DNA from: Gracilariopsis chorda
Taxonomy: Eukaryota > Rhodophyta > Florideophyceae > Gracilariales > Gracilariaceae
Direction: 5' to 3'
Assembly (NCBI GenBank): GCA_003194525.1
Contig: NBIV01000300.1
Location: 24,933-88,932 of the forward strand
Length of the DNA stretch: 64,000 bases
In this document: positions 14,793 through 64,000 of the stretch, one piece after another
Numbering within the stretch: the stretch's first letter is position 1
Layout: every line of letters starts with the position of its first letter
Notes under the pieces: generated by a model
Told to the model about the DNA's origin: nothing
Database searches by the model: none
Seen by the model: only the letters and a program-made list of their open reading frames with translations
Translations under genes and position numbers: made by a program

Positions 14793-14902
14793 ATAATGCT
14801 CCAAATAGGATGGCCAGTAAACTAATTTTTGACGGTGAAAGCGTTGATGTTTTAAAGTTCTTTTTCTACTTCTAGAATGTGTGATGAGAGTTAAGCCTGA
14901 AA

Positions 14903-15921
14903 ATGAAAAGGCTACTCACTGAATTTCTCTGTCAAATCGAGGAAAAAGCCTTTGACTACCACTATAACACCTATGCCGCGGATGGCGTATTGATTCCCGC
15001 AGCAGATGACTACTATGCCGTGAAAAGCGAGTTCTTCAAAGAGTTTACCGAGAATTTCGAGCCTCAAGAATACATCCGAAGAGCAATGATGTGCAGATTA
15101 CGCCCTGCTGATACATTTGCATCTCCTCAAGAGATGAATACCTGCTTCAACAAATTTGGATTCAATATGGAAGCCAATTTTGGACTGCTAAGGAATGCAG
15201 TGACCAAACATATGGGCATGACACAGTTCGTTCTTCTTCGTGGTGTTACTGACTACAACTTTCTGAAGGCCATAATCATCTTTGTCGCTTGCCAAGAGAC
15301 TCTAAACTCTTCCTACAATACCAGAACGCCAATTGGTACGGAAAGATCTGACAGAAGGCGGATTCTTCGACGACCAGAGCAGACGGTGCAGAGCCTGGAG
15401 TCTAAAGTGGAAGACTTGACGGACAACTTGCACATCTCACACTACTGGTACAAAAGAAGCAGAGTGACCAAAGCGTTGACGGAAATGTGAGAACTTGTTA
15501 TTTCTGCCAAAAGCTTGGACATGGCGCCAGCAGGTGCCCCTCAAACCCACACAGGGACTCAAGATATGGGCGCTGTCATAAGCTTGGACATTCTGAGGCT
15601 AGGTGTTGGTCCCGGTCACCTATTGAGAAAGAGGAACACCTTCGACTTACAGAAGCAAACGTCGAATCTAAGACAGAAGAACCTCTAAGAAAGAGGATTC
15701 CTCTAGAGGATGCAGAGGTCACAGCGGCACAGGTCATCGTAGTCACCGAAGAACAAGAAGTGGATCCTGTGGTGACAACGAAACGTGGCTCAGATGGCCA
15801 AGCACTTCCAAAGCAACCAAGAACCTCAAGGGTTGATATTGGGTCACTGCTAAATCCGAAAGACCAACTTCCATCTACAAAGTCTAAAGGTATAATAGAC
15901 CTAACTGGCCCGCAAGTATAG
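14903..15921 (+). pseudogene. Gypsy-A gag with two zinc knuckles, frameshifted
   Basis: The first ORF (14903-15490, 195 codons) is a helical gag-like segment ending in a coiled-coil-like stretch. The nucleocapsid part continues in another frame from 15487 to 15921. Two CCHC-type knuckles follow each other, CYFCQKLGHGASRC and a second that has lost its first cysteine (RCHKLGHSEARC), then an acidic Glu-rich tail. The two ORFs overlap at ATGTGA; a -1 shift would join them. Because further shifts follow, I read this as mutation and not as programmed. Coding sequence resumes in a third frame before 16113. Confidence 0.75.
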
Positions 15922-16112
15922 AGAGAACGTAGAAAGGCAGCTGCGCGAAAGATAGGAGCGAAAAGGAAGACTGTTACACGAGCTAAACAATCAATTCCAG
16001 AAAACGTTGAAAGGTACAATGTTTTAATCGAACTCGCAAAGCCTCTTGCGGACTCTAATTCGGCCAGTTACCACGTGGAGAAGCCGAGGAGGCCAAACGC
16101 GAAATTAGAAAG

Positions 16113-18317: not shown

Positions 18318-19481
18318 AGATTTATTTCCGGCGCGGATATAGGACTTGAAGACGCACAACGAAAACGCACAATCAAAAGGAACGCAAAAGGGTTCATTGT
18401 TTGCGATGGAAGGCTCATGAGGAGAACATCAAAGGGATTGCGACCGATCCCCTTCCAAAATGACAGAAAAATGATCTCAAGACCCTTTCACGGCGACATC
18501 GGTCATTAGGGAATAGGCTTTACCAGAAGTATCGTATTGGAAAGGTACTGGTGGCCGAGGATTTATCGTGACATCGTGGACTATGTGAAGAGCTGCAACA
18601 GGTTTCAACGAGCGGTAGGCATTCTGGCGTACAAAACTGTCCTTAAGTTTCCTTGACTGGGCTCTTTCATGTGTTTTCAATCGACTTTGCGGGACCATTT
18701 CCTACATCTCCGAAAGGAAATCGACTCATACTAGTATGTGTAGAACACGTGACGGGATGGACGATTGCTCGAGCCACTAGAACGGCTACGACCCAAGTAG
18801 TTATAACATTCATACGTGAAGAGGTCATACAGCCATTTGGTCTCCGCAGGCTCATTATATCTGATAATGCAACCTGTTTCCGAGCTAAAGCCCTCATCGA
18901 ATTCATGAAAGAAAAGGGTATCACGTGGAAAACAGTACTGGGTTATGCACCCATGTCAAATGGGAGAGCAGAACGGATGGTTGGTACCCTGAAGAGTGCT
19001 ATAGCCAAATGAGGAATGGGACGTAGTTCTGTCAAGAGTGCTTTACGGATATCGAAGACGCCAGATGGTAGATGGGAACTCCCAATTTGAGCTACTATAT
19101 GGCACAGCACCACGAATGAACAACCACGAGCCCGCCGCACTTGTTGCTCACTACAGCAGTATCCACAGGAGACTAGAGCTAATGGACGCCGAAATAGGTA
19201 GAGCAGCTCGTGCCCTACGCCAGGAAGGAATTAATCGTAACGAAATCAGAGTAATTCGCTTCAATGTTGGTGACAAAGTGCTCGTAGCAAAAGGACAAGC
19301 ACTCAACGCCAAGAAGAAATGGGCTCCATTCGAGTCCAGGTTCTACGGCCCCTGCTGAATAATAAGCGCATCGCACCCACGCTATGTTCTAAATAGCGCG
19401 CATCAAAGGGTGTCCCTAGAACCTATACACGCCAGACGGCTGGTATTGTACTACCCAGGTCCTGCTCATCTGCAGGAGTAG
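18318..19481 (+). pseudogene. Gypsy-A integrase, broken by several stops and frameshifts
   Basis: The H2C2 region (RPFHGDIGH then CNRFQ, about 18480-18605) has an in-frame TAG. The catalytic core (18653-19012) keeps all three acidic residues: Asp in FSIDFAGP, Asp in ISDNATCF and Glu in NGRAERMVG. A stop at 19011 and a shift lead to the C-terminal part (19038-19358), with a VGDKVLV strand and a W-P-FYGP module like the GPY/F domain. The frame can be followed, with one more stop, to TAG at 19479-19481. No chromodomain is visible. Confidence 0.85.
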
Positions 19482-19635
19482 ACTATACAAGCAACTGTGA
19501 TAGGAATCAATGCGTAGAACTTAGGATAATATGGTAGCTGCTAAGAAGAACTATTATCCGCAGCTATCTCTGTTTATTTGTGTGATTAGAAACCATGAAT
19601 TGTATCAACCGAAAAACTAGTTGGGAACCAGCTCA

Positions 19636-21580
19636 TCAATTTCGGCTTTCGAACTCATCATGGGGCAAGTACTTGATGGAACTTTCACCTGGGTCTTTGC
19701 GATAAGCCCATACATGACGACCGTCCGAGAACTGAACGGGATGGGGAAATTCAGCAAGAGCTCGGCCACCTAGTTTAGTGGCAGAAGACATGACTTGGCG
19801 AACCTTCTTCTCTTCGGCCACGATAGGTACCATTACGGCATGAAATCGAGCATCATTTTCCTTCCGATCGACCAGGCGAGAGCTACTAGAACGTCTCGGA
19901 GGAACTTTTCCAGACGTACACTGAATTGAAACAGACTCGATTATCACACGAATTTCACCCAAAGAAGCCTGAGGAAGAGCAGCGTAAGCTCAGAAAAGTT
20001 CTGGCTCATGACGATAACCTGCTCGAGTCTTTCTGGTTGGCGGCGTCTGTAAAGCCCCACGACATATCGGAGGGACGATACCAATAGCATTTTCACCTTG
20101 TTCGACATGCGTGCCTCTACCAACCGACGTGGGGGGATCTTGAACCCCCCGGAAACGAGTATAACGTTCTTCTAACTCCAGACAAAGGCAGTCAAAGCCA
20201 GTAATTTCATCACGGGATTAACTCATGATTGGAAGACCTTATCTAAACGAACGGGTAACTTCGGTGAAGAGAAATACTAACGCAATCATCTCCTGAACAG
20301 CTCTTATATAGAAAAGCATTGCAAAGCGAGTGAAGACCCCTTTGTAGTTATGTCTACACCGGAGAAAAGCCTCACGAATACAAGACGTATGAACAGAAAG
20401 AAGAACCATTTATTGGACTGGAAGGAACGCCATACGCATAGGAACTATGAGCACAATTCATCTAGTCTTGGGGACCTTTTGGACAGAGCTGACGGACCTA
20501 GATGATCTTCGAATGCCGGGGATGACCCCCAGTGACTAAGAAGAGAAAGTCCTTACAGAGTCACAAGGAATGCCGCTCCGCACTATCCAGTATCATTCGG
20601 CGACGTCCATCGACCGCGACCTAATGGTTAAAGTGGGATGAAGCATGACGACCATCATACACGATACGCACAATGTAGTAGCCAGAAGACACGACATCCC
20701 AAACGGAGAAACTCTGAAGCTCAATAGAAGCTTTTCGAAGCTCGACCTTAAAAGGGAGTCTCGTCACGAAAGAGCTCATCTCTCGGAGACTCGCGAATGT
20801 AGTAGGAGTCGTCTCGAAGTACTAGGATAGCCTGTTAGCATCCTCTTGGCCACATGTCGCATCTATGATATTCAGGAGGGCAGCTTGCTTACACTCGCCA
20901 TCATTACTGCGAGTGTAAATGCGACGCTCGTCTCGTATGCTGAACTCCAGCAAACGAGTATCCGACGGGCGCGCCCCTGAGCCTTGAGAGATGGAAACAG
21001 CGAACCCTGGATTCGCTTTGCACCATTCGATGATCAAACTACGACAGTCTCTACCATCGATATCGGCGCCAGACCCCGGAGCAACAGGTGGACTAGGCGT
21101 ATGTCCACCCTTCGCAAGATTCTTCGCGGCGGTCGTCGTCGGCTCAATACGAAAAGCCGGGCGTAATAGAGTCGTGTCGAACACATGCAGGGTCCATATG
21201 TCAATCAGCTGAAATCCAGAGAGTCCAACTTGTCTTCCACTTCATCCTCTAAACTTTCCATCAAAGAAAAGTATGCGGTCTGCTTCCCATCCAGAGTGGC
21301 GTGAGCTGGATCTCGCAGAATGGGATATTGAGGGAGTGTCGCGGGCGTGCGCCGAAGAAGGACCAGCTTTGGAAGGAGCAGACATTTCTCGAGGTGATCG
21401 GTTATTACACGCATCAGAGTGATGCGACCCACTTTCTTTATCGGCGACGTGAGAATTCGGAGCTGGCACGGAGCGTAGTCGCAGCGTCCTCGGCAGATTT
21501 GTCTTCCCAGCGAACAGTTTTCTGGGGGCTGTTTGTCCTTGAGGATTCGGTTTGTGTCGAGTTAACCGTTTGGATATCAA
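19636..21580 (-). pseudogene. Gypsy-A antisense ORF region (aORF-A)
   Basis: Between pol and the right LTR the open frames lie on the minus strand, opposite to the element: 21242-21580, 21205-21432, 20822-21184 and 19636-19962 (112, 75, 120 and 108 codons). Reading through the frame changes gives a Ser/Pro-rich start followed by more globular segments, including an RSLIIEWCKANPGFAVSIS stretch. There is no comparable sense-strand ORF. I see no known domain and no alignable similarity to the antisense ORFs of Gypsy-B and Gypsy-D. Position and orientation match theirs, so I treat it as a probable decayed antisense gene. Confidence 0.45.
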
Positions 21581-21909
21581 ATCGCTAGGTCCTTGTTGTC
21601 GGAGTTGTTGTTTGCGTCGAGCGTTTTTGCCACCTTTTCCCTTGGTTTCTCTTCCTACTCGAACACTTAACTCTCTTCTACAACGTTAGTGTAGATCGAT
21701 TTTGGAGGTGTAAGGGTCATAGGAAGATATTCGCAATGGGCGTTGCCTACTCGTGTAGTTCACTTTCGGCTTAGTACCTAGTCACGCTAGAAGCATTTTC
21801 AATGTGGTCTGATATTCGCCTCTGTCTAAAGGTAGCCAAGAGGGAGAGCACGAAGCTTGGAGGGAAGGACTGTTATATAATGGTGAAATGCTGCCCGTGG
21901 CGGCGGTTT

Positions 21910-21919
21910 GAGGGGGGAA
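21910..21919 (+). promoter_or_regulatory. Gypsy-A polypurine tract
   Basis: GAGGGGGGAA lies directly before the right LTR, which begins TGTGTCG. It is the expected plus-strand DNA primer site and fixes the LTR boundary. Confidence 0.8.
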
Positions 21920-22188
21920 TGTGTCGTGTGTCTGTGGTGCACACGAGTCGGTCAGATATTTTTTTTTTTATTTGCACCTTTTTTATTGGATACTGCCCAG
22001 CTTCCAACATGGAAGCTGATCATAGCGCCCGCATAAATGCCCACCTCTCACACTTGGGGCTTCACCGCTTGAGAGAGAGGGAAGCAAACACCTTGCACAC
22101 CCGAAAACTCGGTTGCTTCTCTCTCCGCATTGCCTCCACCTTCCGCTTAACAACGCGCACCCCCGACATCTTCTTTTCTTGCGCAACA
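21920..22188 (+). repeat. Gypsy-A right (3') LTR
   Basis: Begins TGTGTCG after the polypurine tract and ends GCGCAACA. It aligns with the left LTR along its whole length, including a T-rich run followed by TTGCACCTTTTTTATTGG. Confidence 0.88.
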
Positions 22189-35056: not shown

Positions 35057-35058
35057 AG

Positions 35059-35076
35059 TGGTCTCCCGACCTAGAA
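35059..35076 (+). promoter_or_regulatory. Gypsy-B primer binding site
   Basis: TGGTCTCCCGACCTAGAA begins two bases after the LTR and is identical to the Gypsy-D PBS. The primer tRNA is not identified. Confidence 0.8.
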
Positions 35077-35306
35077 CGGTTCAACCTGGATTTTGTTGTT
35101 TCAAGCTGATATCATTTCTGGTTTGTTTCCTGGGAGGAAGACTCACGTGAAAAGTGAAGAACTGGTTATCAGTTGGACCGTCGTATCCTTGTCGAGTGGC
35201 CTCGGTTTAGGTTTGCTTTGTTATATTTGTTTGTCTGTTCCGTTCTGCGGATACCTCGTGATTGAGCTCTTCAGTATCCTTACTGGATTGGTTGGCTAAT
35301 TATAAA

Positions 35307-43192: not shown

Positions 43193-43444
43193 CCCTCCAT
43201 GGTGAGATCGCACAGAACGTCGGTGGGACCGCAATGCAGTTAGCGGAGATACTCGAGGAGAGTAAGAAGTTGAGAACTCTGATAGGAATGGAGGTTCCAG
43301 GACCATTCCCTTTACTTACCGAATTAACGGTTTCACCGAATTGACGGTTTATGAAGACAAGCATCATGTTTATGAAGACCACGAAGAAGAAGTGTGAAGA
43401 AGAAGAAGAAGCAAGAAGAAAAAGTATAAGTTAACACAGTGTGT

Positions 43445-44070
43445 TCATTCTGTGTTCAGAAGATCTATCGCCAGACGATGAGGTACTGGGTTCGCCTTTC
43501 GCGCACGGTTCAACCATTTAAACGCAAGTATCTTCATCTCTTCGTGTGCCTTATCCAAGGTTTCACCTCTATTGTGGTTAATCCTCAGCAGATTCGGGTC
43601 GATCACAACGAGACTTATCCAATCACGGGACTCGGCGATATCGATAGGTAACCAATCGGGTAGGAGACCGTTCATGAGGTATGATGCAATCAGCTTGTGG
43701 TTGAAAAGATGAAAGGATCCCTTAGAGGATGACGACCGCGGAGCGTTTCCTTAGAGACCCATCCAGCAGCATTGGTAGTAGGCGGACGAGGCTGAGATGA
43801 ATTCCACGCAACCTCCAGTGGATCTAAAGTGGGAACCATCGCAGGTTGTGGCAGAGGTGCCGTAGGAAACCCATCCAGTTGGGGTGCACTCGGCGGAGGA
43901 GGTTGGGAAGGACTAGCGGAGCTGGAAGCACCCGGAAGAGGGTTGGACGGATAACCAGTGGGCATTGGTGGAAGAGTTGGAAGTTGATACTCGAAAGTAT
44001 TACTAGACGCTTCAGACATCGAGCGTGATTCGCCTTGTTTGCGAAGAACCGGAAAATCGGAAGAACTCAT
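43445..44070 (-). pseudogene. Gypsy-B antisense protein (aORF-B), frameshifted and truncated
   Basis: On the strand opposite to gag-pol, starting 82 bases inside the 3' LTR. The first ORF (43690-44070, 126 codons) is Ser/Pro-rich and ends with VPTLD (79-83), AWNS (88-91) and AAGWVS (101-106), then TLRGRHPLRDPFIFS. The second (43445-43675, another frame) has a D-I-A-E-S-R-DW motif, then GETLDKAHEEM. Both parts align in order with the Gypsy-D antisense ORF. The C-terminal two thirds of the Gypsy-D protein are missing. No known domain. Confidence 0.7.
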
Positions 44071-44138
44071 CGTGAGTGAACTATTTGAACACTTTGCCGC
44101 CTGGGACTTCCACTGGATAGACGTAGGAAACCTCGGCT

Positions 44139-49313: not shown

Positions 49314-50226
49314 TGTGGTGCAATCCCGGTGTGGGAAAGGCACCCAAGGCAGCTCGAAGCCTTGCTCTCTTGGAGAGGTAGGCCCAGCTGGGTAGAGCCC
49401 TCCGTGTCCCGTATGACGGGTGTAACTCCGTCGGGAGCCTGGATGTACCTCGGAGGTTTAGGGGTTAGAACGGGTCGGAACCACGGCTGGTACGGAAGTA
49501 GCCTGCGAGCAGGGGAACAAAAGAGGGAAAGGGACCACCCGACGGGGGCGTGCGGAAAGCGGGAACAGATCCCGGAGGGGGGTGCCGATACACACACACG
49601 AACACGCACCGCGCGGCGGTTAGGGGATATGAGGGGAAGAGATGGTCTCACGGTCTCACGACACACGTCGGTAATATCAATACCCAAAACTGGGGCGGAG
49701 ATAGGGCCTGTACGGGCGGTCACACGACAACAATGAATACCACGAGTGGTTACAACCCACTGGGTACGACGAGCACGGTCTCCTCAGTGGTGCGAGTGGG
49801 GTGAAACTACCGGGCAAGCGGTGTACCTCCGCGAGGAGTTAGACACTTCGCATGGCAAATAGAGTCAGAGCCGAACTCTCTTTTCTTTTCTTGGTGAGCT
49901 CGCCGTCGTGCGGCCGACGCTCAAGTACTAGCTCAGTGCAGTACAGTAAGTAGTGCACTAGCCTAAGTAAAATTAACCCCTAAACTACACTAAAATAAGT
50001 AGCCATTTTGGGCCTCCTGGCCGGGGCTGTAGCCACGTGTCCACCACCCCTGCCAGGCAAGTACCACAAAATATGAATGTTCCCATAACCACCCTGGGTA
50101 ACCCGACCGCTAATTAGCCCGGTAAACGGGGACTAAAATTCATGCATCCCGCTTCATCGCTCGCACCGAGTACACCTCAGATATGAGTTTCACCATCGCT
50201 CGTACGCGGGAATGTATTGCACTACA
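49314..50226 (-). repeat. Gypsy-D 3' LTR (left copy)
   Basis: On the plus strand TGTGGTGCAA...TTGCACTACA, with short terminal inverted repeats. Pairs with 59842-60754 without length change. ORFs running through it (for example 49107-49736) are accidental. Confidence 0.95.
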
Positions 50227-50240
50227 CATCCCCCTCCTTA
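50227..50240 (-). promoter_or_regulatory. Gypsy-D polypurine tract
   Basis: On the minus strand TAAGGAGGGGGATG directly precedes the 3' LTR. It shares AAGGAGGGGGA with Gypsy-B. Confidence 0.82.
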
Positions 50241-50275: not shown

Positions 50276-52159
50276 ATGAGGCGCGAGGGTATACATAGTC
50301 CCGACAAGGAAATTGCCGAGATACCGGTCCCCCGTACCAACACGGTTACAACTGATCAACCCTCAGTACCTTCTTCAACAGACTCTGCGCCCCTCTCTGC
50401 TATGACCAACACTCCGTTTTCGAACAACCCGCCTGCGGGCGCCCCGCAGGGGACTTCCGCGAGCGGACAACCTTCCTCCGCGACGCCGGGGTTGCGGGTT
50501 CGTCACCCAACCTCTGGGTTCCTCTCCTTGCCTCTGCCTGGAGGATCGTCTCATGTTCCAACCTTGGATGCCTCGGATGCCGCCAGTATCGCCGCCTGGA
50601 ATTCCGCTCAAGCGATACCGATCACTGCGACCGCCGCCGGCTGGGTGTCACCATAGACACTTTGGGCCCGCAATCCCCAGGAAGACGCTCTCCTCTTTTC
50701 GCTTGCGCCCTGGTTCCACCCCACATCGGTTTCGGACTCGGACCTCATCGACTCCTATGTGGAGGAGGGCGAGCTCCCAGGGGGACTAGGCCGGGATTTG
50801 GTCTACTCCTTCGACTGGAGGACGCGTATCGCGGTAGAGCCACAGTTCCTCGCACGGAAGCGCACCAGATATGGTCTCGAGACGCTGAATGAAGCCCGTG
50901 CCGGGATGGCCAAGGTCGCCTACGACCGTCTCGCCCGCGCGAGTTATCCGGATGAACTGATACCTATGGAATACAGATTTGACCTCTCGCGGTACCGTAC
51001 CTACGGTGAAGTCTCATACTGCGAGAACCTTGCTGCCTACCAGCCATCTACACCGTTCCGGTCCACTCCAATAGAAGCCGGGATGCTCCTCTGGAGGCGC
51101 CCAATTCTGCGTGCAGAGTTCCGATATCTTCGTCGTCCGAATCATCGCGGATCCTTCTTCGACCGACTCCGGTTTGAGCGAAAGGCGCGCTCCCGCTTCG
51201 GGTTCCTGGTACCATACCAAAATCTCGAGGTCGAGAGGCTCCGTCCATCTGCGATGCGCGGCCGGTATGCACCTCTTCCCCATTGGTGGAGCAGGTTCGA
51301 AGTCCCGAGGGGATGCTTTGCGGAGATGCCTCCGTGCCTCAGCTACATCGGTTCACGATTAATCAACAATCCGGATTCCGGTTACTGGACTCTCTTCCTC
51401 GCCGAAAGGGCTGCTCGAGTTGCCGCCTTTCTCCTCTGGGAGGTGTACGACAAGAACCGTCTGTGGTACATTCCTCCTCACCTACGCCAGGTTATCCGCC
51501 GATTGGATCTCTATATCCCTCTGGGATCCGAAGCCAATGTGGATGAGCTTCAGTGCCTTCTGAACACCATCGATATGGTTAACTGGTATACAGTCCCAGC
51601 CTCCAACGTCTCTGACGGTGAGCCTCCCAGGCATGATCGCTCTCCAGGCCGGAGAAATCCAAACGCTGGCAACTTCGTCTTCTATGACCCTTGGGAGGTA
51701 TCCATGACTTCACAGGCTCACGCGCTAGCGTTACGCGATGTACCACGCTCCGTTCCGCGAGGCCACCCGGTTGGGTTCATGTTTTCCGATGACTGGCACG
51801 TTTCCTACGAGGATGATCCAATGGTGGATGACGACCCCGATGAGGTGGAGGAGGCCGTAGCCCCGGGAGCGGCGATGGTCGACGATCTCGACGGATCCGG
51901 CCAGCATGTGGCTGCTCCAGATGGCTGGAATATGGCCGCCAGTGCGGCTGCTTCTCCGTCTACCGCATCTCCGGTCCCCGTGGACCCTCAGGCCGTTGCC
52001 CTCAGGGCTCACTTCCAGTCCAATGGAGTGGTTGCGCCTTCCAACCTCACCAGCGTGAGCGAGTTATTGGCTTTCGCGTCTGCGAACTACCAACCGCCAC
52101 GAGCGGCTCATCTTAAGTCAGGATCCTGGACCGTGGCACACACACCTGATAAAGGTTAG
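50276..52159 (+). CDS. Gypsy-D antisense protein (aORF-D), one in-frame TAG
   Basis: Starts 50 bases inside the 3' LTR and runs opposite to gag-pol. One frame is open for 628 codons apart from TAG at 50654-50656; Gypsy-B has Glu at the aligned place, so it is probably GAG to TAG. The N terminus (1-90) is Ser/Pro/Thr-rich; VPTLD (94-98), AWNS (107-110) and AAGWVS (120-125) follow. After the TAG come YSFDW, then GLETLNEARAGM, a basic Arg-rich middle with PHWWSRF, the segment LWEVYDKNRLWYIPPHLRQV, an acidic stretch (EDDPMVDDDPDEVEEA) and an Ala/Ser/Pro-rich tail. No membrane segment or known domain. It converges on the chromodomain ORF, 294 bp away. Antisense ORFs of plant Tat-type elements (Grande, RIRE2, Ogre) occupy the same slot, but I see no similarity. 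Confidence 0.75.
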
Positions 52160-52452: not shown

Positions 52453-52797
52453 CTACCCAACCTGGGCCATGTCCAAAGTGGATGGGAGTGGGAACCGCGT
52501 CCGGCGGTGGTAGGTTATCACCTTGGAACGAGGAAGGTGCTGAATGGGCTCCCATGTGTCCTCTTCCGGGGGGTATCCGTACCATCGGATTTGGTAAAAC
52601 CACACTCCTTTGGAGTCCAGAACATGATCCACGATGTGGTCAACGACAAACTCCTGGTCGTACGTAGCCGGCTCCTGACCCGTCATGGCAGGGCTTAAGG
52701 GGAGAACCCTGTGAGGGGACTTGCCTGAAATTGGCGCGACCCTGCGGGCAAAGTCAGCTTTCCTCGACGCTGCGAGTGCTGGGACTTGATACCGCAT
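52453..52797 (-). CDS. Gypsy-D chromodomain
   Basis: The core IRWYGYPPEEDTWEPIQH plus LPRSKVITYHRR is a chromodomain, preceded by EFVVDHIVDHV. It is nearly identical to the Gypsy-B domain. In the intact element it is probably the C terminus of pol; the stretch to the integrase tail (52798-53235) is in disturbed frames. Confidence 0.85.
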   Translation of the reverse strand: MRYQVPALAASRKADFARRVAPISGKSPHRVLPLSPAMTGQEPATYDQEFVVDHIVDHVLDSKGVWFYQIRWYGYPPEEDTWEPIQHLPRSKVITYHRRTRFPLPSTLDMAQVG

Positions 52798-53235
52798 TGC
52801 GGTCTTTCCGCTTCCTAATCCTCTCCTTGTGGGGGGGGCCTTCCGTTCTAACCGGATTCCCTATTGACTCGCAGCTCGCGAGCTCTTCTCCCACGCGACC
52901 CGTGCAACTCTGGTGAGTTTGACCGTTCACGGTGAGGGAGGCGGTTCACTACGGTTCCGACGCCAGGAGGCGGATTGCCATGCATCACACACTGTGATTG
53001 GCTGGCCGCTGGCGGCAAGTGTCGCGCGCGGTCTTTCCACGACGCGGGTCTTGACTGTACTCCTGACGCCGGCCGGCGGTATGTACGTGTACAACTTTCC
53101 ACGGTTTGGAATTTCGGGCTTCGTCCGCGTGACAGTGGCGTCACAGTGTCCATTTGTGGGGCTCTGCGGTAACGCACGCAGTGTCAACCACACTCTCCGT
53201 GTCCGCGGTTGCTTTTCAGCTCACCACGAAACTGG

Positions 53236-54297
53236 TTATGACCGAGGTTGTATGTGCTCCGTGCTCGGAGATATCATTCGCCACATTAGTGACCACACCG
53301 AGTCCGGTTCACTACTTCCTCCTTCGCTACCCAGCGACTCGCTCGACAGGAGTGCATCCGGGTCCGCGGAGACGGCCTTCTCGCTTCGCGATGCGTTCAA
53401 CTCCTCCCTGCTCCGGGGGTGCTCATCCGACGATGCCGTATGAAACGGGACACCGTCCGACGCCGGAGCTTCCTTCCGCGATGGCGCGATCGATTCCCGT
53501 CCCTCCCCCTCCTTAGGTGAGAGGGCGGTGGGTTCAGGCTGAAGGACCTCCGCGGGCGGAGTAACGGTTAGGCGTTTGGGGTCAAGCGTGCGTTGCACGA
53601 TACGCGCGGCGCGCCCAACCGGTTGATCGGCAATCGGAAGATCCGAGAGTCCCCGTTCCGGGTGCGGTAAGACGGGTGGGCGGGACGGAAGCAGATTATC
53701 CGTTGGCCGAGTTACGAGGTCATCCTCCGGGATTGTCACGAGCGGTGATGAGCCCTCAGGGGGCGCAGGCGCGTGGGCTACGCGGTCGCGTGAGACGCGT
53801 TCGAACTGGTTATCGATGTCCAGTACGACTGTGTCGTCGGCGACGGAAACCACCCGATAGGGTCCATTCACTATCGGTGACAACTTGTGGCGCTTCTCCT
53901 TTTCGGGATTATAATATTCCTTTCGCAGGAAGACAGAATCCCCTTCCGAGACCTGGGGTATCGGGGTACGAATCTTCGCGTCGAAGTTCTGTTTGTATGC
54001 CTCCTGGGCTTTTCCCATAGCCTTTCGGGCGGTAGGGACCATGTTCTTCAACCATTCCTTCCAGGAATCTCGATATAACCTTGGTGAAGGGTACCCCGAG
54101 ACGTTCGGTTGCGCTTCAATAGCCATGGGTGGCGGAATCCGAGACAGGACCAGCTCAAATGGAGCGAGGGTCGTGACCCGGTGTACCTGGGTGTTATACG
54201 CGTACGTAATAGCGTCCGTGTACAAGTCCCATTCCATGGGGTGATCCGCGACATACGCGCGCAGTGCGTTGAGCATAGTACGATTGAATCGTTCCAC
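53236..54297 (-). pseudogene. Gypsy-D integrase C-terminal part
   Basis: Begins MERFNRTMLNALR with the third catalytic Glu (the start is a frameshift near 54310, not a true start). It continues with YNTQVHRVTTLAPFEL, the C-terminal strand EGDSVFLRKEYYNPEK, GPYRVVSVADDTVVLDI, and a long Pro/Ser/Glu-rich tail to TAG/TGA near 53236. Similarity to Gypsy-B runs along the whole length. Confidence 0.88.
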
Positions 54298-55469
54298 TTG
54301 TCCGTTACACTGCGGTGGTAGGTGGTAGTAAACATATTCTTGATTCCCAAGATTCTACATACGTCCTGAAAGAACTTTGAGGTAAATTGAGATCCGTTGT
54401 CGGAGAGTAGATGTACCGGCGGGCCGTAAGTAAAGACCCAGTGGGTTACGAACGCACGCGCAACCACGTCCGCGGTAATCCGTTTAAGCGGTACTGTTCT
54501 CACCAACTTTGAGAAGCGGTCAGTAATGACGAGAAGATACTTGTAACCACGTTTGGTTTTGACAAGCTCGCCCAAGATATCAATAGCGACATATTCGAGT
54601 GGCGCCCGTGCCGGGAATAGTGTTAACTTCTTCGAGTACTTCCGAAGTTTCACATTATTCTTCGCACATTCCACGCACGAGCGGCGAACTGCATAGCAGT
54701 CAAATGCCATAGCAGGCCAATAGAAGTCCCTGCGAAGGGTCAGGTATAGTTTCCTCCCGCCGGGATGTGCACCCAACTTCGCGTAATGCGATAGATGCAA
54801 GACGCGCTGCTGCAGCGTGTGAGGTACAACGATCTGTGGGGCCCGTGTCAGCGACCTGACTAGGTAGCCTCGATCGTTCACCGCAAAGGGTATCTGTGCG
54901 CCCCCGTTAAGACGGGCACGAATCTGGGCACAGAAAGGATCCTGCTGTTGTTCACGGATCATTTCCTCAGAGGATATGGGAACAACCTGGCCATCCGGAG
55001 GATCCGTAGGGCTTGCAGCCAGAATATCATCACAGATGTCATCCCCATTCACGTCTGGGTCGTCTTCTTCCGTTCCCTCCGGGGATTGTGCCATGAAACA
55101 TGGTATTTCCAGATCGTCGACCGGTTCGGTTTCCGCTGATGTTCCTAAGCGCGATAGGGCGTCAGCCTGAGTATTCAGGGATCCCTTCTTGTAGAGGACA
55201 TCAAATGTAAATTCCGAGAGTCGGAGACGCCAACGCATGAGGCGGCCCGACGGTTCTCGAATTTCGAGTAGCCAACGGAGAGCCGAGTGATCGGTGTGAA
55301 CCTTGAAATGGTTACCCATAAGGTATGGGCGAAGCGTTGCCAACGCCCAAACAACAGCAAGACACTCCTTCTCGGACACCGAGTAGTTGCGCTCGTGAAC
55401 GTTCAACGAACGTGACCAATATCCGATCGGATGTCTTTCTCCTTCTTCCGTGACTTGAACAACGCACAA
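54298..55469 (-). pseudogene. Gypsy-D RNase H end and integrase core
   Basis: In the frame 54048-55469. RNase H: YSVSEKECLAVVWAL, HTDHSALRWLLEI, NTQADALSRLG. Integrase zinc finger: LSHYAKLGAHPGG and CVECAKNN. Catalytic Asp residues lie in VAIDILGEL and LLSDNGSQFTS. A single shift near 54310 moves the Glu motif into the next ORF. The link to RT is shifted near 55455. Confidence 0.9.
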
Positions 55470-57649
55470 CCCACCTGGTGGGCACTTGAGTCAGTATCCA
55501 CTTCGAAGGGTAAGTCCGGGTGCGGTAAGGCCAGAACTGGCGGGGACGTTACAGCGTCGACAAGAGACGAGAATGCTGACGACTCAGCCTCGTCAAAGAC
55601 GTCCAGTTCGGTGGGTTGTCCTTTCCGGAGGAGTGCGTTAAGCGGTGCTGACAAGTCGGCGAAGTTCGGGACGAATCGGCGATATACATTGCAAAGTCCT
55701 AGGAAGGATCGAAGCTCCGTTTGATTAGTCGGATGTTTCGCCTCTCGAAGTGATTTCACTCTTGCTTCATCGATTGAAAGCTGTCCGGGGCGGATGATGT
55801 GCCCCAGATATTTTACCGAATCGGCGCAGAACTCACACTTTCCCAGCTTCAGGGTGATGCCCGCGTTGCGGAGCACTGTCAAGACTTCCCGGACATGGGA
55901 CAGGTGATCGTCCAAGTTATTGGAGAACACTATAATGTCGTCCAAGTATACCAGACAGCTGGTCCATTTGAACCTCGCCAAGAGGATATCGATTGCCCGT
56001 TGGAATGTAGCTGGGGCATTCGTTAGTCCAAACGGCATTCGCTTAAAGCGATATAGTCCTTGATGGCACACAAACGCGGTCTTATCACGATCTTCTTTCC
56101 TAATAGGGACCTGCCAGTATCCCGAATTGGCATCAAGGGTAGTGAACACCGTTGCGCTCCCCAGGGAGTCAATGTACTCGTCCATTCGTGGAATCGGATA
56201 GACGTCCTTGACAGTAACCGCATTCAGGCGGCGGTAATCCACACAGAAACGCCATGATCCATCCGCTTTCGGAACAAGGACAACAGGAGAAGCCCAAGGG
56301 GATTGTGCTGCTTCGATAACTCCAGCTCGCAGCATCTTCTCCACCTGAGATTTCTCTTCCCCCCTTGCTTTAGGGCCTGCCCGATACGGGTGCTGTGCAA
56401 TAGGCCGTGTATCCGGCAACAAATCAATCCGATGTTCGGTTACCCCTATCGTCCCCAGGGAACCGTCCCACATGGCGGTAAAGTCCCTGAGCATGTCACG
56501 AAACTTCTCACGATGAGATTCATTAATGTGATCCAGGTCCAACTTATCCAAAGCCTGTTCTGGGTCTAACGCAGTATCTGCCGATGCTGAAGTCGTGCTC
56601 TTCTGAGCTTCTTCGACAGTCGAATCTGAACTTTCCCGGGCGGGATCCAACGGAACGAACGGGACCTCCTCCCCCTCCTTAGGGTCTTGTATTCCGAGAA
56701 CGTCGGATATCGGAATCTTTGTAGGAAGGATAGCCAACGGATGCGGAAGCATGTTGCCCAGGACCTGGTTTTTAACCAACCACTGAGTGGTAGTTCCGAG
56801 GTTAGCAACGAGAACCTTAAAGGGTTTGTCCGGCTCGACGGATACGATCCCATTTGCTAATGCGAGACGGCGCTGTTCGTAGAGCGAGGGGAGCGGTTGA
56901 ACAACCTGCAACCCGTGGTGTTTGGATGTTACCGAGACCCACACCTGAGATTCCTTCGGGATCGAAACTGGTTCCGCGACGCGAATCTTCGTAGATGCTC
57001 GATCCACATTGGACGCTTCCTGAGCAGCAGGTAAAGGTACCCGTTTACGGGAGGCGTGTCGCAAGGGCTTCCGTACAATCGGGATGGTCGAACCGTTGGC
57101 CAATTCCACGGATCTGGAGCGAGGGCGGATAGCTTCCACGAAGCGGTCACAGAAATCACAACCGAGGATGACCGGTGCAGCAAGAGAATCGCATACGATG
57201 AAGTCCAACTTCACCACGTAGGTGCCTAGTCTGAGTACCAGAGGAATTGTTCCAAGAGTCTGGAGCGGGTTGTTATTAGCGTCCGCCAGATCCAGACTTG
57301 GACCAATGCGAATGCATTTCCGCATGGCGGGTGGAATAATCCCGATATTGATCAGGTTCGGAGCGGCACCTGTATCCAGGACAGATAACTGACGAACCAT
57401 GAACTGGTTAGAGAGACTGAGGTCACTATAAACTTTATAGTTCCTCTTGGCCATTACCAAAACTCGATCCGGGATGCGGAGGTTACGGGACCGTATCCAC
57501 GGACGACGCAGAGCCACTAAGTGGTCCGAGCTCACGTCTTCTTGAGCCAGTTTCCTCGTAAGGATTTTGGCAGGGGAGCGAAGCGGTGGCGCCTCAGGCG
57601 TCTTCAAACTTCGGCTTGGAAGACACCCCTCCCGTGGGGAGACTCCCAA
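55403..57649 (-). CDS. Gypsy-D protease and reverse transcriptase
   Basis: A 748-codon open frame in -1 relation to gag. Protease site DTGAAPN (92-98) and VILGCDFCDRF. RT motifs: ASPVVLVPKADGSWRFCVDY, TLDANSGYWQVP, MPFGLTNAPATFQ, YLDD (568-571). RNase H starts EVDTDSSAHQVG. All RT catalytic residues are present. The frame shifts near 55455, inside RNase H. The true start is by frameshift from gag; there is no ATG near 57649. Confidence 0.93.
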   Translation of the reverse strand: MGVSPREGCLPSRSLKTPEAPPLRSPAKILTRKLAQEDVSSDHLVALRRPWIRSRNLRIPDRVLVMAKRNYKVYSDLSLSNQFMVRQLSVLDTGAAPNLINIGIIPPAMRKCIRIGPSLDLADANNNPLQTLGTIPLVLRLGTYVVKLDFIVCDSLAAPVILGCDFCDRFVEAIRPRSRSVELANGSTIPIVRKPLRHASRKRVPLPAAQEASNVDRASTKIRVAEPVSIPKESQVWVSVTSKHHGLQVVQPLPSLYEQRRLALANGIVSVEPDKPFKVLVANLGTTTQWLVKNQVLGNMLPHPLAILPTKIPISDVLGIQDPKEGEEVPFVPLDPARESSDSTVEEAQKSTTSASADTALDPEQALDKLDLDHINESHREKFRDMLRDFTAMWDGSLGTIGVTEHRIDLLPDTRPIAQHPYRAGPKARGEEKSQVEKMLRAGVIEAAQSPWASPVVLVPKADGSWRFCVDYRRLNAVTVKDVYPIPRMDEYIDSLGSATVFTTLDANSGYWQVPIRKEDRDKTAFVCHQGLYRFKRMPFGLTNAPATFQRAIDILLARFKWTSCLVYLDDIIVFSNNLDDHLSHVREVLTVLRNAGITLKLGKCEFCADSVKYLGHIIRPGQLSIDEARVKSLREAKHPTNQTELRSFLGLCNVYRRFVPNFADLSAPLNALLRKGQPTELDVFDEAESSAFSSLVDAVTSPPVLALPHPDLPFEVDTDSSAHQVGCALFKSRKKEKDIRSDIGHVR

Positions 57650-57661
57650 GATTAGTTTTTC
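57629..57661 (-). promoter_or_regulatory. Candidate -1 ribosomal frameshift signal at Gypsy-D gag/pol junction
   Basis: Minus strand: G AAA AAC (57661-57655), then the gag stop TAA (57654-57652). The -1 frame leads straight into protease. A stem CTCCC/GGGAG with loop CAC (57641-57629) lies 13 bases downstream. Heptamer, stop and hairpin position match Gypsy-B. Confidence 0.6.
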
Positions 57662-59692
57662 GGGACCGAATCGACCGCTGGGTGCGGCTGAGCCCGTTCC
57701 GAAAGGTTAGGGTTGTTACCGTTCGCGGTTTTCGCGGCTTCTCGAGCTTGAGCATTGTGGACCGCAGCCTTTGCGTCTTCATACGAATTACTCGGGACAC
57801 GAGCCTTATGCTCCGGTGGGAGATTCTCATAATTTCCCACGATCTTCCACATCTCGCGAATGGGGAGGGTACACTGCGACGCAGTATGACCTTCAAGGTA
57901 ACAAATGTAGCAAATCAGCGGGGCTGAACGTGTTCCGGTGGCGTGGGACATCATTCCGCGGTGCTGAGGGTGTTGTGGTTGGAATGCTAGTTGCTTCGGG
58001 TTGGACCATCCCGGGCGGGAGTGTCTTGTGGCGCTCGACGCGTAGGCTAGCGGGGCTGGGGGAACCCGACCGGGGTTTGCGTAAAAGGCCGGATCTACCA
58101 CGGGGGTGTAACCGTGGACGGCAGTTCCGAGGTTGCCAACGACTGTTCAAGACTGCCAAGATACTGGATGTTATCCGCAAATCCGGAAGATGGCCCCGGG
58201 TTAGGGAGAGATGCCGAGGAAGCCTCGTTCTCGACGAAGAGAGCCTTCGACGACCGACGCCTCGGGTCTCTCGCTCTGAGGGTGTCACCCTCAGCCTGCG
58301 CGTACTGGACCAGTTCCAGATACGTCGCCTTGCGCTTCTCTTCCCTGTAGCGGGACACCAGTGCCCTGATACCAGGATCTAAACCATCCACCAGCATGGA
58401 GCAACGCTCAAAAGCGGTAAACACATTTCCACAACGATGAAACGCTTTATTCAAGCGAGTTGAATACGACGTTTCCGTTTCACCAGGCTTCTGTTTCGTA
58501 TCGCGAACCGCCACGATGGCTTGACTGATTGCAGTTCCCGTCGCGTACGACCTGAGCAGGTAGTGTACAGCCTCGGGCCAGCACGTAACACCTCCTTCTG
58601 AGGCCCTGGACGAACCCCTGACGAGTTGTACTGATCTTCAGCCATTCCTGAAAGAAAGTAGGGCAACGCAACGTATGCCTGCGCCTCACTCATTTCGAGT
58701 ACGTCTGCTTCCTGCACAAAGCGGGCCAGAAAATCCAACACGAGGATCGGATCTTCACCGGAGAACTTCTGCTTAAGCATCGTCACATTCATACGACGTA
58801 TGAGATCCTTCACCCGACCGGTGTCTCTCGAACTTCGAGTGCCCGAAGAGTCTTCCAATCGGTAATAACGATAGGACAACAGCTTCCTGTAAAGGGGATT
58901 CGTCGGTTTCAATTCCTTCAAGCCGAAATGACGGCGACCTTTCTCCCGCGCACGGATTGCTCCATGGGAGGTGTAGGTAGCCCTCGAACTAGGTTCTTCT
59001 CCGCGACGGCGGCCTCTCCCTTCACGCGATGATCTCGAAGACGAGCTACTCGAACTTGTTTCCGAGTCGGAACTTGACGAAACTTCATAACGATGAACTC
59101 TCTTTCCAGGGTGACGGGGGAGGTGACTGGAGCGGTGTTGGGTTGAGATGACCTTCACTTCCTCCTGTCTCGGAGCGTTCAGGTCTTCTCTGAGCAACGC
59201 TTCCAGCGTGTCCATACGTCCGGTTACCCGCATCATATGGGTTTTAACTTCCTCCACGAACTCCCGATATCCTTCTACGAAGGCAGCCGGAGTACCCAGA
59301 CACTCCAGAATGGAATTCACATCAGCTCTCAGGAGACGAATATCTCCCGAATAATCCCGAGCCAGGGAGTCACTCCATCGCCGTTCCAACTCGGTAACTT
59401 GCTGCGAGAGGGAGGCGTGGGCCACATTGGCAATGTCGATTCTCGACTCGAGGAGATGGTACTTAGGCGACCCGGGTCTCGGGGGGACAGCCGACGGCGT
59501 TTCGACCACCGGAGGTGGCGTAGTGGCCACAGCTGTCACGGCTCGAGGCACCGAGGTTGCCGATGGGATTCCTTGGGATTCCAGACCGACGGCATTGGTA
59601 AGTAGTTGTTCCGGAACGGACCTTCGTGATCTCGCCGCTGCGGCGTTCCGTTGCGGACCATTCCTGGGGGAACTCGGAGCTGTGGGCAGCAT
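57652..59692 (-). pseudogene. Gypsy-D gag, two frameshifts
   Basis: The N-terminal ORF from 59692 has an Ala/Pro/Ser-rich start, a coiled-coil-like middle (ISLSQQVTELERRW region), a Ser tract, LKPTNPLYRKLLSYRYYRL and GEDPILVLDFLARFVQEA. A shift near 58620 leads to 58095-58514 (KQKPGETETSYSTRLNKAF). A second shift in a C-run near 58098 leads to 57652-58101 with the zinc knuckle CYICYLEGHTASQC. It ends VPKN*. The same order as Gypsy-B, whose main ORF is continuous here, shows that the shifts are mutations. Confidence 0.88.
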
Positions 59693-59821
59693 ACTGCAGA
59701 TAGCCGTCCACGGCTTACTTCACCAGTCCCACGGCTTGGGAATCTCAACGAATGAGCAAAAAGGGATAAAAGGGAAAAGGGGAAGCGGACTTCCGACAGG
59801 CCGGATTGAAAGCCAAACCCG

Positions 59822-59839
59822 TTCTAGGTCGGGAGACCA
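59822..59839 (-). promoter_or_regulatory. Gypsy-D primer binding site
   Basis: Minus strand TGGTCTCCCGACCTAGAA, two bases after the 5' LTR, identical to Gypsy-B. Confidence 0.82.
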
Positions 59840-59841
59840 CT

Positions 59842-60754
59842 TGTGGTGCAATCCCGGTGTGGGAAAGGCACCCAAGGCAGCTCGAAGCCTTGCTCTCTTG
59901 GAGAGGTAGGCCCAGCTGGTTAGAGCCCTCCGTGTCCCGTATGACGGGTGTAACTCCGTCGGGAGCCTGGATGTACCTCGGAGGTTTAGGGGTTAGAACG
60001 GGTCGGAACCACGGCTGGTCCGGAAGTAGCCTGCGAACAGGGGAACAAAAGAGGGAAAGGGACCACCCGACGGGGGCGTGCGGAAAGCGGGAACAGACCC
60101 CGGAGGGGGGTGCCGATACACACACACGAACACGCACCGCGCGGCGGTTAGGGGATATGAGGGGAAGAGATGGTCTCACGGTCTCACGACACACGTCGGT
60201 AATATCAATACCCAAAACTGGGGCGGAGATAGGGCCTGTACGGGCGGTCACACGACAACAATGAATACCACGAGTGGTCACAACCCACTGGGTACGACGA
60301 GCACGGTCTCCTCGGTGGTGCGAGTCGGGTGAAACTATCGGGCAAGCGGTGTACCTCCGCGAGGAGTTAGACACTTCGCATGGCGAATAGAGTCAGAGCC
60401 GAACTCTTGTTACTTTTCTTGGTGAGCTCGCCGCCGTGCGGCCGACGCTCAAGTACTAGCTCAGTGCAGTACAGTAGGTAGTGCACTAGCCTAAGTAAAA
60501 TTAACCCCTAAACTATACTAAAATAAGTAGCCGTTTTGGGCCTCCTGGCCGGGGCTGTAGCCACGTGTCCACCACCCTTGCCAGGCAAGTACCACAAAAT
60601 ATGAATGTTCCCATAACCACCCTGGGTAACCCGACCGCTAATTAGCCCGGTAAACGGGGGCTAAAATTCATGCATCCCGCTTCATCGCTCGCACCGAGTA
60701 AACCTCAGATATGAGTTTCACCATCGCCCGTACGCGGGAATGTATTGCACTACA
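59842..60754 (-). repeat. Gypsy-D 5' LTR (right copy)
   Basis: Same length as the left copy and ~98% identical by eye. Long ORFs through LTR and leader (59745-60374) show no protein character. Confidence 0.95.
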
Positions 60755-60886
60755 GATTGTATTCTCAAGATTTCACAAAAAGCAAAGATTTTTGTGCGCA
60801 TTGGGTGGCGAGATTTTCCCGGACAACACACGGCGTGCGCCATCCCAGCGTCACTAGCCACTTGCGCAAGAGGTTTGTCTCCAAGA

Positions 60887-62883
60887 ATGGCGCCGAAGGG
60901 TAAGAAGCGAGGCCCGGCAAGGGGTGGTGCGGCGAGTACGCCTAAAACGCGGCGAAAGGCTATTGAGGAGCGAACCGCGAGTGGAACGAAAGCAAGATCA
61001 TGTGTTTCCAGGAGCGGATTCTCGGGGAGGAGGTCAGAAGAAGGTGCTTTGAAGAGAGGGGGATGAGGTGGGGCAAAGAACGTCGGATCCGAGCGCACGA
61101 CGAGTGAGATTTGAAGGCTGATGCCCATGCGCTTGTAGCACGCAGGAGAGATTCGGTTCGGGGACAGCGATCTATGCCTGGGTCTGGTGGTGGGGTGGAG
61201 GGTAAGAAAGGGTCGGTTGCTAAGAGAAGAGAAGAGGTACCAGATCAGGGAGGGTTGAAAGCAAATGCGCGGGTCGAAGACCGAAATAAAGATGAAGAAA
61301 TGCCGGAAAGGAAACAAATGGAAGGGGCAGTTGCGCTGAAAAGAGTTGGAGCCCCAAGGGGAAATCAATATGGAGGAGAGGCAAATGTCCCTTTGGTAGA
61401 GAGTGATGGGGACGAAGAGGATCACATTGTGAAGGGGAGATGGACGAGAGAGAGAATAAAGGAAGGAGTGGGACGCCGCTCTGATTTAAAGGAAACGCGA
61501 GAAGTGGAAGAAGTGGTCGGAGCGACGGATGGAATACAGGAAGCATCAAAAAGTGGAGAACGTACGAGCACCCCGGTACGGGCGCGAAAGGTGCAAATGG
61601 CTCAAGACTTGGAAAGTGATAAAGGAAGCATAACGCCGCGGACTCAGGAAGGAATGCGAGAGAGGAAACGAAGTGTTCATCGGTTGCCAAGTGAGCCTGC
61701 TGAGGAGCGACGGCTGCCTGTCAATATTTTGGGAGATGCAGGGAATGACGACATCGGTATGATGTCTCGATCATCGTTAGTTGAGAGGGTCAATATGTTG
61801 AAGGCAGAACTCGGGCAGATCAAAGGGGACCACTGCAGCCTAAAGATGTCGCTGAAGCTGACGCAAGAGGAACTGAAGAGGATGAGAGAAGAAATGAGCG
61901 AGAAGAATTTGCTGATAGATAGGTTACGGGAAGGGATGAAGGTGAGACGAGGGGAGAGAAAGGGATCTGAAGGTGAAAAGGAATTGCGAGGGCGTAGGAA
62001 GTATGTGGTTGATGTGCAAGAGGGTTTTTATGGGTTTACCAGGGTAGTATATGATAGGTTGTTGTACTATGCGAAGGTGGAGGTATCGGAGCTTTGTTTT
62101 ACTTCGGAGGGTGTGGAAAGGAACTGGAAGAATCGATGCGAAGTATTGGGGAAGGGAAAAGAGGAGAGTGTGTTTGTTGTAGGAGGAAAGGAGATTGTAC
62201 CTCGATGTCCGTTTGAGATTGCGTCTGAGCTGAGGTCGTACACGCCTTCGTCGCAAGGAGGAAGTAATGAACTATTGAAGTACTTGGTTGGCGTTGAGAT
62301 TGAGGGGGAGAGATGGGAGTCGATTCGTGAAGCGGGTAGGAAGGATCAATGCGTGCGGGAGGTTGTGCGGACAGGTGTTTGAGGCAAAGTATGAAGCAGA
62401 AGTTGAGTGATGTGATTGGGGTTCGGAAAGCGTGCGGCACGGGACAAAATGTTTTCGTTGCCTGGATATCACTTGATAGCCAGACGTGTGGGACCGCGAG
62501 AGGGGACGGAGCTAGACATGGAGTTGAAGAAGCAGTTAGAGGAAGTAAAGACGAAGTTCATGGGGGATGGGGAGGCGAGGAGTGGTAGGTTATGTTCTGG
62601 GAGGATGAAAACAATCGAAGATCTTACGTATTCTGGATTTCAGGTTGCTGGTCGGCTGAGGGAGTTTAGTGAAGAGGACATGTACTTCAAGAACGGGGCT
62701 GCAGTGGAAGTGTTGGAAGACTTCATGGGATATGAGGTGGGGACGGAAAGGGAGGGAAAGATGGAGTACGTTGATGGGACAGTGATGCATTTTGCTCGTT
62801 TGGATGCGTGGATTGGATTGGTTTTGACTGCAATGGACACAGATATGGGGCGTGAAGGAAGACGGCAGTTGTTATTTTTCTAG
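60887..62883 (+). pseudogene. Basic coiled-coil protein gene, broken into several frames
   Basis: A clean ATG at 60887 opens MAPKGKKRGPARGG in frame 2, ending at TGA 61064-61066. Frame 1 is then open from about 61108 to 62382: a Lys/Arg/Glu-rich region, a coiled coil (NMLKAELGQIKGDHCSLKMS, then LTQEELKRMREEM), and a more globular part with VDVQEGFYGFTRVVYDRLLY and CPFEIASELRSYTP. After stops and a shift near 62385-62500 the frame 62416-62883 continues (TIEDLTYSGFQVAGRL, MHFARLDAWIGLVLTAM) to TAG. I know no family. It faces the minus-strand transposase-like gene, with 75 bp between the stop codons. Confidence 0.5.
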
Positions 62884-62958
62884 TTGTACGGGGAGTATCT
62901 TCGGCTTGCGGTGGAGAAAAATACTTGTGGTGGCGTTGGAGAGGGTGGGAGAACTACA

Positions 62959-64000
62959 TCATGAAGAATTGGAGAATGAAGGTTGCGATGACGGTGACCC
63001 GCGTTTTATAGCTAGGAATGGGAGTAGAGAAGCGAAGGTAACGCTGTGGATACCTTCGAAATGGAAGATTGCGGAGATGGCGCGCTGAATGAGGTCCATT
63101 CTTGTTTCGCGTGGATGCTGGAGGACGAATGTGGGATGAAGTCTGCGTGGTTCAGGGGAGGAAGAGGGGGAGAAGGAGGTTGGGAGGTATCCGAGGAGGG
63201 TGAGGTTTTCGGAGATACACTTTCGGCGGAATGCGTCTGAGAAGTTGAGAAGGGTGATTTGAAGGGGATATGAGTTGATGGAGGAGCTCTTGAGTGAGGT
63301 GGCGGACTTACCAGAGTATAACTGGACGAAACCGACGGAAGATTCCACACCGGTTGTTTCGGGGGTGTGCCAGACGATGTCATTGATGTGGCACTGCATG
63401 ATGGCTTGCTTGAAGGCAGGAACGACTTTGTTTCCAAAGGCTGCGTCCATAGGATGGGCGAATGCCGGGGTGGAAGAGGAGGAAGGGGAAGATTGGGAGA
63501 CAGGTTGGAAGAAGGTGTTGCTGAAGTGTGCGAGAGCGAGTTGTTGCTTCAGGACGTCTGTGGCGCATTTTTTGGAAGAGGGTTGCGGAGAAGGAGTTGT
63601 GCTCGTCGGTGATTGTGAGAGGGAGGAAGCCGTTGGAGCTGATGCATTCCTTGAGGAGGTGTTCTTGGAGTGCGAGGCACTGCTTTGCGGAGGAGATGGA
63701 TTTCTGGAAGGATGACTTGGAGAAGTCTGGGTGGTTGAGAAGGGAGATGAGTTCGTCGGCTTTGCGTGGGTCTGAAGGAGGAAGCAATGGAGGAGATGCA
63801 GAGGACGAGATTGCTCGAGATGGGGGTTGTTGAGGAGAGGGGAGGGGGATTGGGACGAGGTATGGGGAGGTGGGTTTGAGGAGGAGACTGAACAGAGGGC
63901 GTGACTTGCCATGTGGTGTGCGTCTTGTGTTTGGAGGGAAAGGAGGTTTCTTGGATGTGATAGGGTTCATCTTCGGCGAGGGGGACGTTGTTGGAGAGGG
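62959..64000 (-). pseudogene. Transposase-like gene (5' end outside window), one frameshift
   Basis: The 5' part lies in the frame 63380-63970 and is open to the window edge: Pro/Ser-rich, then KADELISLLNHPDF and LLKECISSNGFLPLTITDEH. Near 63560 the coding frame shifts to that of 62959-63912: FGNKVVPAFKQAIMQCHIND, VGFVQLYSGKSATSLKSSSI, YPLQITLLNFSD, RRKCISENLTLLGYLPTSF. The LYS-x-K-x-T, YP-x-x-x-T-x-x-N and LLGYLP spacing resembles large CACTA-like/Plavaka transposases from memory. This is a tentative assignment; a host gene is possible. The end lies at TGA/TAA 62959. Confidence 0.45.

Follow-up and report, generated by a model that had tools for sequence, protein, structure and literature searches.

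A conserved antisense protein gene in chromodomain Ty3/gypsy elements of the red alga Gracilariopsis chorda

What does a long reading frame mean when it lies on the opposite strand of a retrotransposon? The question is raised by Gypsy-D, a Ty3/gypsy element in a stretch of 64,000 nucleotides of Gracilariopsis chorda (contig NBIV01000300.1, positions 24,933 to 88,932), which is referred to here, at its full length, as the window. The gag-pol genes of Gypsy-D are on the minus strand, and between its chromodomain and its 3' long terminal repeat (LTR) there is a plus-strand antisense open reading frame (aORF). This frame turned out to be one damaged copy of a protein-coding gene that is present in many chromodomain Ty3/gypsy families of this genome. 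The gene occupies the opposite strand in the interval from pol to the 3' LTR, so that it and pol are arranged tail to tail. Over the longer evolutionary times of the lineages it was maintained by purifying selection, and it has diverged in parallel with the integrase. That it is a real, selected protein gene can be considered almost certain.

The frame and its relatives in the genome

A sequence-only reading of the window had described 628 codons with a single stop opposite to gag-pol, and the frame was confirmed as such; the minus-strand orientation of gag-pol follows from Pfam matches to reverse transcriptase (RT), RNase H, integrase and chromodomain (table 1). The same reading let the frame begin 50 bases inside the 3' LTR, of which the distance is right but the location is not, because the frame starts 50 bases inward of the LTR edge and outside the LTR proper. 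Of 913 sites, 20 are different between the two LTRs of Gypsy-D, whose 5-base flanks on either side are unmatched. Compared with other copies, the window copy also deviates upstream of the frame and close to its 3' end.

It is generally known that GC-rich or codon-biased DNA can yield long open frames, and the aORF could in principle be a chance or shadow frame without product. However, the strand opposite the window frame (50276-52159) contains no ORF longer than 112 amino acids, in agreement with the sequence-only reading, and there is no sense gene that the frame could shadow. In 500 first-order Markov sequences of 2200 nucleotides (nt) read in six frames, the longest ORF had a median of 169 and a maximum of 425 codons, which is exceeded by two genomic aORF copies of 643 and 694 codons, with 14-31 stops in each of their remaining five frames. 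Together with the codon-position pattern, the ratio of nonsynonymous to synonymous substitution rates (dN/dS) and the protein-level conservation across families described below, these results leave a chance origin with hardly any credibility, and it was rejected.

The genome searched was the assembly that holds the window (91.3 Mb in 1081 contigs). Its 18S and 5.8S rRNA are eukaryotic, and a search for the large subunit of RuBisCO, in which the controls were recovered, gave no match. A DNA search produced at least 40 scored copies with 97-100% identity (139 first-look candidates), and a protein search produced 86 scored matches, the best of 1697 candidates and biased toward good copies, 70 of which have no internal stop. 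The existence of homologous frames in other copies, which the sequence-only reading had named as a check, is thereby established, and it extends to other element families. In intact Gypsy-D copies the stop-to-stop frame is commonly 643 codons long, and 571 residues are encoded from the Met at window position 50402 to the stop. A Gypsy-D frame and its relatives in other families are about 40-50% identical over up to 541 residues; a search with a 462-residue relative added further families, in many of which the frame is open for 502-673 codons (among the best 92 of 1457 candidates, some of which contain stops). When nine rows from different element families are aligned, 92 positions are conserved with at most one departure, and these form the blocks DWR-RIA, RTxGE, RAEFRY, RFERK-RS, EVPRGC-ELP, EW-RVA and D-SPG. 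The acidic linker that comes next is variable, and the C-terminal motif behind it, about 35 residues long, was detected by tblastn in 9 of 15 loci, several of the others being decayed or ending early.

The position of the gene is as constant as its sequence blocks. In all eight families for which flanks were available (C264, C15, C215, C30, C7, C40, C20 and C148) the aORF follows the integrase on the opposite strand. A chromodomain C-terminal to the integrase was found in Gypsy-D (PF00385, which has a frame of its own in the window copy) and, between integrase and aORF, in seven of these eight families. Conversely, the chromodomain search (best 150 of 1658 candidates, six rows of which are second fragments) gave 144 places, and 102 of them have a listed opposite-strand aORF match within 4 kb downstream, a same-strand match being listed at none. 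The gene has the features that define the class eORF-3'R: a length of 250 codons or more, a site between pol and the 3' LTR, an orientation opposite to gag-pol and presence in many copies. Ty3/gypsy elements have gained chromodomains several times (PMC12477816), and therefore the domain alone does not place its carriers in the chromovirus clade.

Two side observations concern the structure of these elements. In Gypsy-D a poorly conserved spacer (52860-53236) separates the chromodomain from the final integrase match, and the chromodomain is in a separate frame; the same spacer is about 0.6-1.1 kb in L039, L059, L061, L063, L064 and L065, longer than in the window copy, and it is possible that it represents an intron or a fast-evolving linker. 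In C15:287946-306215 (L047, L059, L060) four aORF matches are spaced regularly at about 6,017-6,020 bases. Two adjacent units are 99.8% identical over 3.1 kb, and the fetched stretch has matches to integrase, chromodomain and aORF and none to RT. This could be either a shortened element repeated in tandem or an artefact of the assembly.

Selection and descent with the element

Between Gypsy-D and C264 the dN/dS of the aORF is 0.170 (583 codons, with 150, 117 and 312 changes at codon positions 1, 2 and 3, respectively) and that of the integrase 0.064; for the pair C15-C20 the values are 0.235 and 0.162. Whole-frame counts between C264 and seven copies fall within 0.16-0.21. C79 (L040) contains a frame-shifted stretch by which its dN is inflated, and it was not averaged with the others; in four deeper pairs synonymous changes are too many for an estimate. 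The central claim of the sequence-only reading, namely that the frame is a conserved protein gene in antisense orientation and does not shadow a sense gene, is upheld by the multi-family alignment, by the constant place and strand and by the low dN/dS in diverged pairs.

Across 33 pairs formed from nine elements, the identities of aORF and integrase are correlated (r 0.65, C30 being excluded for lack of integrase sequence), and none of 5000 permutations gave a value as high. A single old acquisition followed by joint descent with the element fits these comparisons best. Alternatively, the aORF could be a cellular gene that was acquired once and is carried as cargo without function for the element, as LTR elements are known to capture genes (PMC7264820). 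Such cargo is very unlikely, given a dN/dS far below 1 over long times and a descent parallel to the integrase; moreover, no host relative appeared among the matches listed, although hits outside elements were not looked at systematically.

Several observations weigh against a selected gene common to these elements, or against the role proposed for it below. First, 42 of the 144 chromodomain places have no listed aORF match. Eight of them (C99, C346, C175, C250, C96, C44, C18 and C6, by hand count) gain one through the search with the 462-residue relative. Direct reading of four of the 42 showed an open 462-codon aORF in C96, a decayed one in C44, an N-terminal remnant only in C279 and no match in C10. 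C10 and C279 have N-terminal letters in common with C6, and by their sequence they look like internally deleted copies. The idea, drawn from these two, that the aORF was lost in families with long open pol frames was dropped because C18 and C6, in which the open frame that holds the chromodomain has 1712 and 788 codons, respectively, have an aORF beside it.

Second, little selection is seen in young copies. The sequence-only reading had proposed dN/dS between copies as a check, and the outcome depends on age: low in the two diverged pairs, it reaches 0.77 in the young pair C215-C7. The integrase of that pair gives 0.76, and the pair is an internal control, showing that aORF and integrase drift alike in young copies. 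Within the young Gypsy-D family the ratio of nonsynonymous to synonymous polymorphism (pN/pS) is 0.69, near neutral, over 31 rows, some of which have their first part in another frame and which include repeats of identical stretches. In 26 Gypsy-D copies, after removal of 8 of 34 rows (five that differ in the upstream frame, together with C264, C79 and the window copy), singleton variants comprise 46 nonsynonymous and 34 synonymous changes, and variants present in at least three copies comprise 12 and 5. Neither count gives a clear signal of selection inside this family. Purifying selection is visible over the life of the lineages and absent from the last burst.

Third, the identity correlation depends much on one deep family, C40. 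Finally, neither Pfam scans nor the composition of one copy revealed a nucleic-acid-binding domain or one of nuclear localization signal (NLS) type, and the proposal of a nuclear role therefore rests on composition and analogy.

The protein and its possible role

In the aORF protein a Ser/Pro/Ala-rich N-terminal tail is followed by a core of about 340 residues that is basic and rich in Arg, then by the acidic linker and finally by the C-terminal motif. In one intact copy the core has an isoelectric point (pI) of 9.5 and 13% Arg, and the tail a pI of 4.1. The best 19-residue Kyte-Doolittle mean of that copy is 1.29, so that no stretch reaches transmembrane strength, and no simple metal-binding motif was found in it. 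Judging by these properties, the protein looks soluble.

The absence of a known domain had been noted from the letters alone, and database searches agree with it. None of 12 family members matched any Pfam model, PF04195 and PF10536 included, at an expectation value (E) of 0.1, and two pieces of the window aORF gave no Pfam match at E 1. Four members had no match in PHROGs and a single weak row (E 0.04) in NCBIfam, which was taken as chance; PDB sequences contained no match at E 1, and a scan of viral contigs and prokaryotic genomes with two short peptide patterns detected no relative. A SAP/LEM-like identity, considered for the C-terminal motif, is not claimed, as Pfam was empty for five segments at E 10.

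The closest known counterparts are found in flowering plants. Reverse ORFs at the 3' end are known in Ogre, Tat and Retand elements, which are non-chromoviruses. The extra ORFs of the Tat lineage (Transposase_28/PF04195 of Retand, gene23 of maize Grande, and those of rice RIRE2 and Ogre) resemble the aORF in being located between pol and the 3' LTR, in antisense, in most copies; the protein of Grande is nuclear and that of Retand is predicted to bind DNA (PMC7264820, PMC11963269). Transposase_28 is typical of Retand (PMC11963269). The differences concern hosts, elements and proteins alike. Tat elements are not described with a chromodomain in the accessible portion of PMC6317226, whereas here pol ends in one, and the aORF members tested have neither PF04195 nor any other Pfam match. 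In the same source, the extra-ORF proteins of plant Ty3/gypsy elements, at all positions and on both strands, fall into 314 groups, in contrast to one aORF family that can be aligned across many element families. A genome search for PF04195 gave no match, though its positive controls gave none either. The aORF product is a protein distinct from those of the plant Tat lineage and conserved across many chromodomain-element families.

HBZ, the antisense protein of human T-cell leukemia virus type 1 (HTLV-1), comes from a gene that is started in the 3' LTR, and it carries a bZIP domain. No sequence relation between HBZ and the aORF protein was seen, and a bZIP match is absent from the Pfam scans. 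The likeness lies in the arrangement, as HBZ is encoded antisense to gag-pol at the 3' end and is nuclear (PMC11963269), and a promoter in the 3' LTR would be a further parallel by analogy. The antisense proteins of plant elements and of HTLV are described as nuclear or possibly regulatory (PMC7264820, PMC11963269). In the open-access literature searched, conserved antisense genes were not found described for chromodomain elements or for algae; subscription papers, including a survey of extra ORFs from 2011, lay outside this search.

Taken together, the explanation that we favour, by a modest degree of confidence, is that of an accessory gene transcribed as a unit of its own, with a product that would be a trans-acting factor of the nucleus. 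A separate antisense mRNA is probable and would be started, by analogy, from a promoter in or beside the 3' LTR. The accessory protein translated from it could bind nucleic acid or chromatin (or the integrase or ribonucleoprotein) and thereby control the expression or integration of the element. Its designation as a nuclear regulator that binds nucleic acid or chromatin is tentative, being based on composition and analogy, and falls somewhat short of an even chance. More speculative still is a two-strand system, in which gag-pol is expressed from the 5' LTR and an antisense trans-acting factor with its own fold from the 3' side. The lineage would depend on this factor to succeed in the long term, and by binding chromatin or nucleic acid the factor would counter the silencing tied to chromodomain-guided integration into heterochromatin.

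The same layout could also serve restraint. As a negative autoregulator the aORF would limit transposition and control copy number, its mRNA being the complement of the final 2 kb of genomic RNA and its protein targeting Gag, integrase or RNA. The tail-to-tail antisense arrangement is in accordance with this, antisense RNAs and silencing by small RNAs are discussed for plant antisense ORFs (PMC7264820), and some young copies (C10 and C279) have an internally deleted aORF. However, a role of the RNA only is refuted by selection at the protein level, and as a general argument selfish elements keep a restraint less easily than a helper; we consider autoregulation unlikely.

The other alternative is a function in the particle or in cell-to-cell passage, i.e. 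an additional structural or envelope-like protein from the antisense strand. Plant env-like ORFs and ORF3 of bdelloid rotifer elements also lie between pol and the 3' LTR (PMC7264820, PMC5408684), the plant ones being mostly discussed as sense-strand ORFs (PMC7264820). Proteins of this kind often have membrane or enzyme domains (PMC5408684), and none was seen in the aORF protein, whose hydropathy and empty Pfam and PDB sequence searches speak against such a function; a separate antisense mRNA would also be an odd source of a structural protein. A particle protein is considered still less likely than autoregulation.

Two aspects should be highlighted. First, plant LTR elements have extra ORFs of many kinds, for which no function is proven; here one family extends across many diverged element families of one genome, with measurable purifying selection and an alignable core, and the question of how antisense genes serve retroelements can be put to one definable protein. 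Second, the aORF is an added gene in the parts list of chromodomain elements, and such frames may be misfiled as orphan host genes.

Gypsy-B and the remainder of the window

A second element, Gypsy-B, lies on the plus strand and was said by the sequence-only reading to have the same protein in the same place. This holds for the N-terminal part, of which a remnant with the S-x-DW and ETL-x-x-A blocks is found on the minus strand at about 43415-44136, but the remnant is split over two frames and the remainder of the protein has no match within Gypsy-B. The remnant has 46% identity to the Gypsy-D aORF over 71 amino acids (E 1e-8) and 56% to that of family C40. The claim that the LTRs of the two elements are otherwise very different was overstated, since common blocks have 68% (125 nt) and 77% (66 nt) identity; the LTR region of Gypsy-D likewise has blocks of 42-136 nt, 74-87% identical, in common with the sequence upstream of the aORF in C264. 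Moreover, 22 bases of the primer-binding site are identical in Gypsy-D (59800-59841, minus strand) and Gypsy-B (35058-35097, plus strand), and their polypurine tracts are near-identical. As the LTRs are related and these sites are common to both elements, the argument from unrelated LTRs fails, while its conclusion stands.

Table 1. Coordinates in the window of the aORF copies and of the parts of Gypsy-D
Feature	Position	Strand	Remarks
aORF, window copy	50276..52159	+	628 codons; in-frame stop at 50654-50656; damaged compared with other copies
aORF, likely start codon	50402..50404	+	Met in 24/34 extracted frames; aligned with Met of family C264
aORF, open part	50657..52159	+	500 codons; most of conserved core, acidic linker, C-terminal motif; final residues deviate from other copies
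3' LTR, Gypsy-D	49314..50226	-	49314-50229 by self-alignment; presumed site of antisense promoter
Polypurine tract, Gypsy-D	50230..50239	-	
Chromodomain frame, Gypsy-D	52453..52860	-	PF00385, E 6e-11
Integrase C-terminal frame, Gypsy-D	53236..54354	-	
RNase H and integrase frame, Gypsy-D	54048..55490	-	Pfam matches
RT frame, Gypsy-D	55403..57706	-	RVT_1 in Pfam; protease label of first part positional, without Pfam match
Presumed gag frame, Gypsy-D	58451..59719	-	By position, without Pfam match
5' LTR, Gypsy-D	59842..60754	-	
aORF N-terminal remnant, Gypsy-B	43690..44136	-	148 codons
Next aORF part, Gypsy-B	43445..43750	-	Different frame; S-x-DW and ETL-x-x-A blocks

A third Ty3/gypsy-like element (14511-22188) has LTR-like repeats of about 265 bases with 90% identity (14511-14774 and 21923-22188) and frames for protease, RT and RNase H; no aORF match was found within it. 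By their matches, further frames in the window are an alpha-amylase with CBM20 (2174-3898) and a MraW-type methylase (8235-9371), both on the minus strand, and a minus-strand region at 62962-63966 has a weak match to a Plavaka transposase, under the curated cut-off. The last part of the window, 60000-64000, where a scan for tandem arrays reported none, has a strong positive GC skew that climbs from 0.24 to 0.54.
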